A stretch of DNA of 64,000 nt. Origin: Streptomyces diastatochromogenes. GTDB lineage: Bacteria; Actinomycetota; Actinomycetes; Streptomycetales; Streptomycetaceae. Made by a program: the position numbers and the translations under genes. The notes beneath the pieces were generated by a model, which did not search any database, was not told the origin of the DNA, and worked only from the letters and a program-made list of their open reading frames with translations. The DNA lies in assembly GCF_002242805.1 (NCBI RefSeq), contig NZ_MCGQ01000010.1:318726-382725 (forward strand), given 5' to 3'. Shown here in pieces: positions 36,514 to 39,331 of this stretch (the first letter of the stretch is position 1; the number at the start of each line of letters is the position of its first letter).

Positions 36514-38139
36514 GTGGACCCGGTGATCATCGTCGGAGCGGGGCCCGTCGGGCTCACGCTCGCCCTGGCGCTGGCCCGCCAGGAGGTGCCCTCCGTCGTC
36601 CTGGACGAGGGCCCCGGCAAGGACGAACCACGCCCGGCGCGCACTGTCGTGCTGCGCGAGGACACGGCCGCCCTGCTGGAGCGGCTGACCGGATTCGCGC
36701 TCGGTGATCACGGCACGAGATGGACCGGATGGCGGTCGGTCAGGCGCAGGCAGGTGATGACCGAGATCACCTTCGACGAGGGCGATCCCGCCACGCCGCT
36801 GCACCTCGCCCAGCACGTCCTCACGGGCGCCCTGCGCGCGGCCGTCGCCCACGAGCCGCTGGTCGAGGTCGCCGTGGACAGCCGGCTCGACTCGATCGAG
36901 CAGGAGCGTTCCGGCGTCTCCGCCCACACCCGCGGCCCCAAGGGCACCTGGTGGCGCGGCAGTTACCTGGTCGGCTGCGACGGGCCCCGCTCGACCGTGC
37001 GCAAGCTGCAGGACATCCGCTTCCCGGGCCGTACGGCGGTGGAGCGGCACGCGGTGGCCGCCCTGCGCGTGGAACTTCCTTGGGAGGGCCAGGCGTTTCT
37101 CCATCGGATGCCGCCGTGGCGGTCGTCCGGGCCCTCGGCCGGGGAGGTGACCGCCCGCCCCCTCCCGGACGGCGTGTGGCGTCTGGACTGGCTGCTGCCG
37201 CCGGGCAAGGACCTGGTCACGCCCGAGATCCTGGTGGCCCGGATCCGCGAGACCCTCGCGGGCTGGACGGAGGGCACCACACCGGCGTACGACCTCCTCG
37301 ACACCGGTGTCCACACGGTGCACCACCGGCTGGCCCGGCGCTGGCGCGCCGGCCGGGTCTTCCTCGCCGGGGACGCGGCCCACCTGCTCGGCGCGCTCGG
37401 CACCCAGGGGCTCGACGAGGGCCTCAGGGACGCCGACAACCTGGCCTGGAAGCTGGCCCCGGCCTGGCACCACGGGCACCACGAGGCGCTGCTCGACAGC
37501 TACCAGGCCGAGCGGCGCGCGGTGGTCGCCGCCCGGCTGCGCGCCGCCGACCAGTTGCTGCCGGTGCTCCGCGGCGGGGGCGGGCTGCGTCACTACGTCC
37601 CGGGCGCGGCCCGGGGTCACGACGCACTGCTCACGGACGGTCACCTGGGGCGCGGCCCGGTGGGTGCGCCGGGGGCGTACGCCGACTCGCCGCTCGCACC
37701 CCGGCACCTGGAGGCGGAGATCCCGGTCGACACGCCGTTCGGCTCAGCGGTGACCGATGTGCGGGTCACCGCGGAGGACGGTTCCTTCGTACGGCTGCGC
37801 GACCGGCTGGGCCGTGGCGCACTGCTCGTCGTGCTGATCGCACCGGGCACGGGCGTGTGGGACCGCAAGCACTGGGTGTCCGCCGGGGTCATGCCCCGGC
37901 TCGCCGCCGCGGTGACGGCGCTTCCGCACCCGGCCGAACTGCTGGTCGCCGAGGACTACCCGGGTGCGCCGGCGCACAGCGTGCTGCTCGTGCGCCCCGA
38001 CGGCCACCTGGTCACCGCGCTGAGCGGAGTGCGTCCGGCCGACCTGTACGCGGCGGCGGAGGCGACGCTGGGCGGTGCCGTGCAGGCGAAGGAGGAAAAG
38101 GAGAAGGAGGGGGCGGAGGCCGGCTCCGGCGCGCGCTGA
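36514..38139 (+). CDS. FAD-dependent monooxygenase (PgaE/MhpA type) with thioredoxin-like C-terminus
   Basis: A 541-residue flavin hydroxylase: VIIVGAGPVGLTLALALARQ at the N-terminus, VGCDGPRSTVRK in the middle and GRVFLAGDAAHLLGALGTQG near residue 290. The last ~130 residues match the thioredoxin-like fold seen in phenol and polyketide hydroxylases but lack a CxxC. GTG 36514 follows a GGGGG stretch; a TTG at 36424 would add 30 unrelated residues. It stands alone between the glu operon and the cysteine genes, and is not similar enough to the catabolic-operon hydroxylase to call it a recent copy. Substrate unknown. Confidence 0.85.
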   Translation: MDPVIIVGAGPVGLTLALALARQEVPSVVLDEGPGKDEPRPARTVVLREDTAALLERLTGFALGDHGTRWTGWRSVRRRQVMTEITFDEGDPATPLHLAQHVLTGALRAAVAHEPLVEVAVDSRLDSIEQERSGVSAHTRGPKGTWWRGSYLVGCDGPRSTVRKLQDIRFPGRTAVERHAVAALRVELPWEGQAFLHRMPPWRSSGPSAGEVTARPLPDGVWRLDWLLPPGKDLVTPEILVARIRETLAGWTEGTTPAYDLLDTGVHTVHHRLARRWRAGRVFLAGDAAHLLGALGTQGLDEGLRDADNLAWKLAPAWHHGHHEALLDSYQAERRAVVAARLRAADQLLPVLRGGGGLRHYVPGAARGHDALLTDGHLGRGPVGAPGAYADSPLAPRHLEAEIPVDTPFGSAVTDVRVTAEDGSFVRLRDRLGRGALLVVLIAPGTGVWDRKHWVSAGVMPRLAAAVTALPHPAELLVAEDYPGAPAHSVLLVRPDGHLVTALSGVRPADLYAAAEATLGGAVQAKEEKEKEGAEAGSGAR

Positions 38140-38180
38140 CCGTGCGCCCGGTCACCCTCTGTCCACATGGTGACGGTGAG

Positions 38181-38209
38181 TTGACCGGAGTGCGGCAGCG
38201 TGCTGTACT
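38181..38209 (+). promoter_or_regulatory. Promoter of the cysteine dioxygenase-rhodanese operon
   Basis: TTGACC (38181-38186), 17-base spacer, TGTACT (38204-38209). The transcript would start about 38216, directly at the leader-peptide GTG, so the leader is probably read from a leaderless mRNA. Confidence 0.6.
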
Positions 38210-38216
38210 CCGGATC

Positions 38217-38303
38217 GTGACCGACACCTGTGTGCGCCTGTGGCGGAGGGTCCATATGGACCTCGTCCGCTATGCGGGCTGCGTGTGTCGCCCGTCCTGC
38301 TGA
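38217..38303 (+). CDS. Cysteine-rich leader peptide
   Basis: A 28-codon frame starting GTG 38217 encodes a peptide with RRVHMDLVR in the middle and ends AGCVCRPSC. The RR-x-H-x-DL-x-R core is the signature of the short leader peptides found ahead of sulfur and amino-acid genes in actinobacteria. Three of the last ten residues are cysteine, plus one near the start, so ribosome progress would report cysteinyl-tRNA supply. It precedes the genes for cysteine breakdown. A hairpin lies 24 bases after its stop. Assignment as an attenuation leader is strong by pattern and position but untested. Confidence 0.75.
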   Translation: MTDTCVRLWRRVHMDLVRYAGCVCRPSC

Positions 38304-38326
38304 ATTCGCTCCCCCCTTTCTTGCTC

Positions 38327-38346
38327 CGGGCGCCGTTGTGCGCCCG
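38327..38346 (+). terminator. Putative attenuator hairpin
   Basis: CGGGCGC-N6-GCGCCCG, a perfect 7-bp stem between the leader peptide and the cysteine dioxygenase start. It could terminate or mask depending on where the ribosome stalls in the leader. Confidence 0.5.
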
Positions 38347-38375
38347 TTCGGCGAACCCTCTTCAGGACGGTGCAC

Positions 38376-38921
38376 GTGTCTGTATCCCCCTCCGTCTCCC
38401 CCGCTGCCACCGCCGGTGCCACCGGCTCGGCGCCGACCCAGGCGGACCTCCTCGACTTCGCGCGGCGCACGGCTGCCGACACCGAGCTGGTCGCCTCGCT
38501 GCCGCTCGACCCGGAGGGCCGCACCTGGGTGCGGCTCGAGGGCCCCGGCGGCAGCGAGGCCTGGCTGATCGGCTGGCCGCCCGGCTCCGGCACCGGCTGG
38601 CACGACCACGCCGACTCGGTCGGCGCCTTCCTCACCGCGGCGGGTGAACTCAAGGAGTACTCACTGGCCGCCCGGCTGCCCACCGACGGCTGGAAGACCC
38701 TGGAACTCACCGAGGGCGTCGACCGCGAGCGCCGGCTGCCCGCCGGACAGGGCCGCTCCTTCGGCCGCCACCACGTGCACGAGGTGCTGAACGAGTCCCC
38801 GGACCGGCATGCGATCTCCGTCCACGCCTACTACCCGCCGCTGCCACGGATCCGCCGTTACAGTCGCACGGGTCAGGTACTGCGCCTGGAGCAGGTCGAG
38901 CGCCCGGAGGACTGGCAGTGA
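38376..38921 (+). CDS. Cysteine dioxygenase-family protein
   Basis: A 181-residue cupin of the type I cysteine dioxygenase family. Metal-binding cupin motif 1 is GTGWHDHADSVGAFLTAAGELKE (two His) and the third ligand is in GRHHVHEVLN. The enzyme oxidises L-cysteine to cysteine sulfinate with O2 and Fe(II). GTG 38376 has AGGA 8 bases upstream; GTG 38370 is too close to that site. The stop overlaps the rhodanese start by GTGA. Confidence 0.88.
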   Translation: MSVSPSVSPAATAGATGSAPTQADLLDFARRTAADTELVASLPLDPEGRTWVRLEGPGGSEAWLIGWPPGSGTGWHDHADSVGAFLTAAGELKEYSLAARLPTDGWKTLELTEGVDRERRLPAGQGRSFGRHHVHEVLNESPDRHAISVHAYYPPLPRIRRYSRTGQVLRLEQVERPEDWQ

Positions 38922-39331
38922 GCGGCGGCACGGAGACACAGCCCGTGGGCATCGACGACCTGCTGGAGCGGGTCCGCGCGGGCTACCGGCGCGTCGAGGC
39001 ACAGGAGGCGCACGAGGCGGCGCGGACCGGTGAGGCCCTGCTGGTCGACATCCGGTACGCGGCCCTGCGCGAGCGGGACGGCGTGATCCCCGGCGCGCTG
39101 ATCATCGAGCGCAACGAACTGGAGTGGCGCCTCGACCCGCAGGGCAGCCACCGGACCCCCGAGGCCACCGGCCACGACCTGCACATCGTCGTCATCTGCA
39201 ACGAGGGCTACGCCTCCAGCCTGGCAGCCGCCTCCCTCCACCAGCTGGGCCTGCACCGCGCGACGGACCTGGTCGGCGGCTTCCAGGCATGGCGGGCGCA
39301 GGGGCTGCCGGTGGAGCCGGTGAACGGCTGA
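38918..39331 (+). CDS. Rhodanese-like sulfurtransferase
   Basis: A 137-residue single-domain rhodanese. The active-site loop is CNEGYASS with catalytic Cys94, preceded by LLVDIRYAALRERDGVIPGA (the CH2A-like Asp-Ile-Arg block). It accepts sulfane sulfur as a persulfide. Translational coupling to cysteine dioxygenase suggests the pair handles cysteine or sulfide surplus. Confidence 0.9.
   Translation: MSGGTETQPVGIDDLLERVRAGYRRVEAQEAHEAARTGEALLVDIRYAALRERDGVIPGALIIERNELEWRLDPQGSHRTPEATGHDLHIVVICNEGYASSLAAASLHQLGLHRATDLVGGFQAWRAQGLPVEPVNG

Follow-up and report, generated by a model that had tools for sequence, protein, structure and literature searches.

The locus described here lies in a 64,000 nucleotide stretch of the genome of Streptomyces diastatochromogenes (contig NZ_MCGQ01000010.1), referred to below as the window. 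It holds a gene for cysteine dioxygenase (CDO), a rhodanese-domain gene and, upstream of both, a short leader open reading frame (ORF) with a candidate promoter and several predicted RNA pairings. The features are given one per line.

38181..38186, + strand: -35 element TTGACC, conserved from -36 to -31 relative to the leader across 87 distinct relatives
38201..38211, + strand: extended -10 region TGCTGTACTCC, likewise conserved in these relatives, from -16 to -6
38217..38303, + strand: leader ORF with a GTG start and 28 codons, reading VTDTCVRLWRRVHMDLVRYAGCVCRPSC and then a TGA stop
38249..38262, + strand: inner hairpin GGTCC-ATAT-GGACC, nearly invariant, with 99.5% of cells paired in 41 sequences
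38280..38282, + strand: Cys22 codon TGC, Cys in 86/87 distinct Streptomyces leaders and lost in some other genera
38286..38288, + strand: Cys24 codon TGT, the proposed stall codon, TGT in 87/87 distinct Streptomyces leaders
38292..38299, + strand: anti-Shine-Dalgarno sequence CCGTCCTG in leader codons 26-28, the full complement of 38363-38370
38328..38345, + strand: hairpin GGGCGC-CGTTGT-GCGCCC, a perfect 6-bp stem whose sequence and length vary between relatives
38363..38370, + strand: CDO ribosome-binding region CAGGACGG, the complement of leader codons 26-28
38376..38921, + strand: CDO gene (PF05995, E 1.1e-48; PDB cysteine dioxygenases, E 2.8e-12)
38918..39331, + strand: rhodanese-domain gene (PF00581, E 5.3e-14), overlapping the CDO stop by GTGA

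The initial annotation placed a cysteine dioxygenase-rhodanese downstream of the leader. Both domains are present there, but in two genes and not in one protein; a single fusion protein was rejected because the two ORFs are separate and overlap by GTGA. The CDO ORF is also open from a GTG at 38370. The GTG at 38376 is the more likely start because AGGACG lies just upstream of it and the alignments of most of the relatives listed begin at residue 3 or beyond. In 108/110 Streptomyces loci CDO is followed by a rhodanese match, the exceptions being L034 and L058. An FAD-dependent monooxygenase gene (PF01494; 36424-38139, + strand) lies directly upstream of the leader and ends 77 bases before it.

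The putative -10 block TGTACTCC (38204-38211) begins 13 bases upstream of the leader and TTGACC begins 36 bases upstream. A well-formed promoter that starts transcription at the leader GTG had been claimed. Since both blocks are conserved in the 87 relatives, transcription may plausibly begin at the GTG or close to it, and the leader is probably leaderless. However, a strict sigma-70 scan reported no promoter at the leader, and the start at the GTG itself is one that we infer. Farther upstream, a partly conserved block GTCCACATGGTGAC (38161-38174, 43-56 bases before the leader) resembles the GGTCCATATGGACC palindrome within the leader and is a possible candidate for a protein-binding site.

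The 28-codon GTG frame, with its RR-x-H-x-DL-x-R signature and Cys-rich end, reads as the initial annotation described it. It matches the NCBIfam family NF042934 ("putative leader peptide") with 37.1 bits and E 1.6e-9 (cut-off 27), and with 35.5 bits in a six-frame genome search. With NF042933, the mycobacterial Ms5788A type, it scores 17.9 bits, under the cut-off of 45. The Cys end is C-V-C-R-P-S-C and includes no contiguous run of Cys codons. The spacing from His13 to Cys24 is 11 codons, which matches the NF042934 core with a Cys at a fixed distance. The same H/A-to-Cys spacing is found in 42/43 other members of a first family set (L009 has Ser) and in 39/39 of a second. This NF042934 leader precedes sulfur-metabolism genes, CDO and then rhodanese; "short ORF upstream of sulfur-metabolism gene" is our own reading of the family and is not a stated family rule. 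By sequence comparison the leader at 38217-38303 is real: it is conserved, it belongs to a leader family that already has a name, and its target is new for that family.

At the gathering threshold no Rfam family was found within the window. An intrinsic terminator scan of 37800-38700 found none, and no U run follows the hairpin at 38328-38345. This lack of intrinsic terminators between the leader and CDO speaks against a classical transcription attenuator, and control of translation is therefore expected.

Conservation was followed in 150 Streptomyces genomes, of which 149 have a CDO-type match and 130 a close match (E < 1e-60); 110 of the 130 close-CDO loci (30 + 80) were read for the leader. 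It lies upstream of CDO in 108/110. One of the two misses is a contig edge within the CDO gene (L116). In the other, L126 (G012), no leader was found and the CDO frame runs upstream into LacI-type repressor sequence, either a rearrangement or an assembly fault. The leaders comprise 87 distinct nucleotide versions, and the reading frame and TGA stop are intact in 87/87. Trp9, Arg10, Val12, His13, Asp15, Arg18, Tyr19, Cys24 and the stop are invariant. The conservation of Cys codons across Streptomyces had been set beforehand as a test of the leader. The late codons bear it out (86/87 for Cys22, 87/87 for Cys24), and Cys28 is kept in 77/87. Codon 5 does not, being Cys in only 26/87 and Asp in 40/87, and Cys5 was discarded as a sensor codon.

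In other genera of the Streptomycetaceae, a version of the leader is found at 27/31 CDO loci (not in L176, L181, L182 and L183). None was found at L188, a CDO locus of a different family in the class, or at L189, a divergent Streptomyces CDO. Among seven distant CDO-like genes of Streptomyces (L190-L196) two have a family leader, L191 with RHHVDLVRVASALC and L192 with RHHVDFVRVASALC. The residues after Cys24 vary widely between genera and are not kept outside Streptomyces.

Pairwise comparison of codons 9-28 (1500 pairs drawn from the 87 leaders) gave an amino-acid identity of 0.928 vs 0.818 in the compared stretch of CDO. Synonymous identity was 0.851 vs 0.665 in CDO, and 0.646 at the conserved sites of CDO itself. 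Both the peptide and the RNA therefore look constrained. The synonymous constraint is uneven: codons 16-19 are near the gene rate (0.694), and codons 10-12, 15 and 20-24 hardly vary (0.94-0.97).

The codon for Cys24 is fixed far beyond Streptomyces. The equivalent codon is TGT in 27/27 CDO leaders of other genera. We located the fixed position by counting 11 codons on from the H/A of [HA]xDLxR and assembled a family sample of 84 leaders: 14 own-genome matches (L001-L014, two weak ones omitted), 30 class loci (L127-L156) and 40 class regions (L197-L236). L207 is cut by a contig end, leaving 83. The fixed codon is TGT in 81/83, the others being TGC in L229 and Ser in L009. Among leaders without Cys runs (L136 not counted) the fixed position has 67 TGT vs 1 TGC, and the other Cys codons are TGC in 84/89 and TGT in 5; the difference is significant by Fisher test (4e-37), with shared ancestry ignored. 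In leaders with Cys runs the non-fixed Cys codons are often TGT as well. The background of TGT in long ORFs, under a crude filter, is 28/138 in the window and 22/157 in the class flanks. Other conserved residues of the leader vary synonymously across the class. UGU is read by wobble. The fixed TGT suggests, on codon usage, one tuned stall codon. We infer that the ribosome acts at the fixed UGU, the peptide and the codon working together and the UGU serving as a tuned slow codon.

The NF042934 family is well represented in this genome, with 16 matches at E up to 1, nine of them over the cut-off. At the same E, 6/14 control genomes also match, none over the cut-off. In a class-wide draw, a match at E up to 0.001 was found in 199/296 genomes and 79/114 genera, and in 0/14 control genomes. 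The frames that follow the own-genome leaders are long open frames and not proven first genes. They include cysteine synthase, nitrite/sulfite reductase, a sulfonate-type transporter permease, sulfurtransferase, flavin reductase and a luciferase-like monooxygenase. Those after L001 and L006 match no family, and those after L009 (glutathione-transferase-like) and L011 (sugar-binding type) have no clear sulfur link. Three of the matches lie on contig 14 within about 6 kb (G000:C14:175281, L009; 176691, L014; 180802, L001), one of them weak; they are perhaps a sulfur-uptake cluster with several leaders.

The end of the CDO leader is complementary to the ribosome-binding site of the next gene. The identical octamer pair (CCGTCCTG / CAGGACGG) is present in 85 of the 115 loci that have the motif. 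GGACGG is found in all 41 aligned rows, with an inserted A in 2. The initial annotation called a hairpin downstream of the leader. The 6-bp hairpin is there and is perfect, but it forms the variable end of a more extensive predicted fold. The openness of the CDO site, that is, the predicted unpaired probability of the ribosome-binding site, was averaged over 108 loci. It is 0.05 with no ribosome and 0.06 with a ribosome at Cys22, and it is 0.28 at Cys24, 0.33 at Cys28 and 0.33 at the stop. When the leader was redrawn with synonymous codons at 20 loci, openness was 0.23 vs 0.08 for the native sequences; closing of the site is therefore partly written in the codons. On average about 6/25 redraws equalled the native hiding and 7.6/25 the native stall gain, and at 3 of the 20 loci (L021, L055, L084) most redraws were at least as good as the native leader at hiding the site.

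Complementarity and folding thus agree on a masked site in Streptomyces, but covariation and the consensus fold do not. In the 41 sequences 95.3% of cells pair, and the complement to the CDO site is present in 93.6% of cells. Only one two-sided pair change was seen among them, in the inner hairpin and not in the masking helix, and covariation was no better than in shuffles; lacking significance, it was set aside as proof of the helix. In the RNAalifold consensus of the 41, the partner of the CDO site is UGUC of codons 24-25 and not CCGTCC, so that CCGTCC of codons 26-28 is a candidate for the exact partner.

Most CDO leaders in other Streptomycetaceae genera lack the masking helix. Three other-genus loci (L166, L167 and L177) have a matched change, CCGTCCC with GGGACGG. 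L167 folds that way, the site of L177 pairs elsewhere and L166 was folded from another start. GGACGG is missing within the 140 bases searched in 20/27 leaders of other genera; in three of these (L161, L175, L185) it lies further downstream, unpaired with the leader end. Of the 26 other-genus loci whose CDO start could be placed, 6 have the site paired to the end of the leader, and one masking mechanism for all CDO leaders was rejected on this count. Only some of the Streptomycetaceae have the predicted site-masking helix. Because the TGT is kept where the helix is mostly absent, the output step is either lineage-specific or just one component of the control.

Across the family, the pairing was examined at 64 loci whose downstream start could be placed with confidence (the window's own locus, L002, was left out). 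The 24-base leader segment that starts at the fixed Cys pairs at -12.4 kcal/mol with the ribosome-binding site of its own locus and at -10.9 with the sites of other loci; 0/200 permutations were as good. The 24 bases just upstream of the fixed Cys score almost equally (-12.2 kcal/mol), and the location of the pairing is therefore not sharply defined. A stall at the fixed Cys raises mean predicted openness from 0.23 to 0.29 in 66 family rows. Openness rises by at least 0.1 in 20 of them (most clearly L010, L155, L156, L225 and L227), falls by at least 0.1 in 8, one of which is the cysteine synthase locus L003, and changes little in 38. Stall opening is therefore the architecture of some family members and not of all. 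The opened loci include those before sulfurtransferase, DUF4395 and luciferase-like monooxygenase genes. Ten downstream proteins, most of them picked for stall opening, comprise five DUF4395, two rhodanese, two luciferase-like monooxygenases and one flavin reductase.

We consider it somewhat probable, from sequence and predicted folds, that this NF042934 leader controls translation of CDO-rhodanese, that a pause at UGU24 opens the CDO site and that the operon is turned up when Cys-tRNA is short. The transcript would start at the leader GTG. With no ribosome near the leader end, the CDO site would be hidden in the fold. On pausing with its A site at the UGU of Cys24, a ribosome would cover codons 26-28 and free the CDO site. 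The pause would depend on the supply of Cys-tRNA and would probably be helped by the conserved nascent peptide RRxHxDLxR, which is why the UGU, and not the earlier UGC, would be the stall point. Shortage of Cys-tRNA would then raise the operon, as it would the sulfur genes with the same kind of leader.

The sign of the response, up or down with cysteine, is the least certain step of this model. Since the masking RNA follows immediately after Cys24, holding a ribosome at that codon opens the CDO site in silico, and opening is therefore predicted when Cys-tRNA is short; on the folds, this is the simpler prediction. Plentiful passing ribosomes would also open the site briefly, which weakens the prediction of the sign. 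Moreover, it would be physiologically odd to raise a cysteine-destroying enzyme at low cysteine. In a Streptomyces isolate grown in feather medium, the available part of a report gives a 50.2-fold rise in the mRNA of cdo1, a possible orthologue of this CDO (PMC7181669). Such a rise points to cystine-rich food and to control at the mRNA level. The initial annotation had proposed ribosome-mediated control by cysteinyl-tRNA in which ample cysteine opens the catabolic genes. The regulatory leader, the conserved late Cys codons and the sulfur operon stand, but the direction is unsupported: in silico a Cys24 stall opens the site, as it does in 20/66 family rows.

The opposite sign nevertheless keeps a real chance, given the oddity of the shortage response and the feather result, and we rate it as unlikely but not negligible. 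Ribosomes with ample cysteine would pass Cys22 and open the CDO site again and again, and in shortage they would stop at Cys22 and leave it closed. The predicted openness at Cys22 (0.06) and at the stop codon (0.33) is in keeping with this, as is the closing of the site by a fixed-Cys stall in 8/66 family rows, and the catabolic role of the operon and the cdo1 rise (PMC7181669, in the part available) would follow naturally. Yet Cys22 is lost in several genera while the TGT of Cys24 is fixed, and the same layout precedes a sulfurtransferase gene and further sulfur genes, which ought to open in shortage. A simple sensor of tRNA charge leaves the fixed RRxHxDLxR with its single TGT unexplained. 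A nascent arrest peptide, in which RRxHxDLxR stalls at the UGU on a small sulfur molecule and abundance opens CDO, is doubtful to much the same degree. It would account for the non-Cys residues held at constant spacing before the TGT across many genera, and since synonymous codons vary at these residues the peptide is what is kept. No ligand is pointed to by this analysis, however, and the residues from the UGU to the stop are not conserved outside Streptomyces. TnaC-type arrest occurs at the stop codon and has conserved residues up to that codon; this form of arrest was rejected because the C-terminus after Cys24 varies so widely between genera.

Leader translation might instead govern Rho-dependent termination within the leader, with the masking helix secondary. 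The helix is missing in most other genera and there is no intrinsic terminator, and Seliverstov in 2005 suggested Rho for mycobacterial cys leaders, calling it weak in the portion of the paper at hand (PMC1262725). We judge this improbable, as 93.6% of cells in the 41 Streptomyces sequences retain the complement to the CDO site. It is very improbable that the conservation reflects an RNA element or a protein-binding site, with an incidental reading frame. The unusual synonymous conservation of codons 10-12, 15 and 20-24 and the almost invariant inner hairpin would suit such an element. Against it, residues stay while codons vary across the class, frame and stop are kept in 87/87 leaders and the window has no Rfam family at the gathering threshold.

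The leader-controlled translation favored here would place a cysteine-breakdown operon, one that most sampled Streptomyces genomes possess, under a family otherwise seen in this analysis before several sulfur-gathering genes. The family would also gain a concrete stall point. If the UGU is the single sensor codon, a TGT to TGC change should shift regulation with the peptide unchanged. A broader reading, which we hold as tentative and rather unlikely, is an Actinomycetes-wide sensor in which the nascent peptide and a near-obligatory UGU report Cys-tRNA to sulfur genes, with Streptomyces having wired it with the same sign to a cysteine-destroying operon. In that reading, the earlier Cys codons would be mostly UGC so that the ribosome reaches the tuned stall codon. 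A proposed role of Streptomyces CDO is to provide sulfite for the breakdown of feather keratin (PMC7181669, partial text), and its control is therefore also of practical interest.

In the open-licence literature we found no direct report on the Streptomyces CDO leader or its test, nor on the fixed UGU. Cysteine leaders without terminators were predicted in 2005 for Mycobacterium, Propionibacterium and Bifidobacterium (PMC1262725, in part), and cysteine-rich leaders with ribosome occupancy were described in mycobacteria in 2015 (PMC4633059, in part). Citing papers, in the text available, attribute the control of mycobacterial cysteine genes to a hold by scarce Cys-tRNA (PMC13236596, PMC9031893). 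The leaders of S. lividans (trpL, leuL, ilvL, metL and others) are similarly short, mostly leaderless and located before amino-acid genes (PMC8079986, available part). Unlike the present leader, none of the eight listed is called cysteine-dependent or assigned to CDO in that part, although metL holds Cys codons (PMC8079986).

The closest known system is the NF042934 (cis_reg_atten) family, with the same RRxHxDLxR...C core; several other members in this genome also precede a sulfur gene. The present leader differs in its target, a cysteine-breakdown operon, and in the extra C-terminal RPSC, conserved in Streptomyces, which carries the complement to the next ribosome-binding site. The mycobacterial polycysteine leaderless ORFs of the Ms5788A type have in common with it the core KRRAVDLCRVAG followed by Cys, no terminator and a likely leaderless start, and the class loci with Cys runs, taken as this type, have the same fixed TGT. 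It differs from them in having no run of Cys codons and a score below the NF042933 cut-off. Canestrari et al., in Mol Microbiol in 2020, reportedly described cysteine-responsive attenuation by these mycobacterial ORFs. In translation attenuators of the ermC type, a masked downstream ribosome-binding site is freed by a ribosome held on the leader and the signal is an antibiotic. The masked site and the held ribosome would be alike in the CDO leader, and the proposed signal here is Cys-tRNA at one codon.
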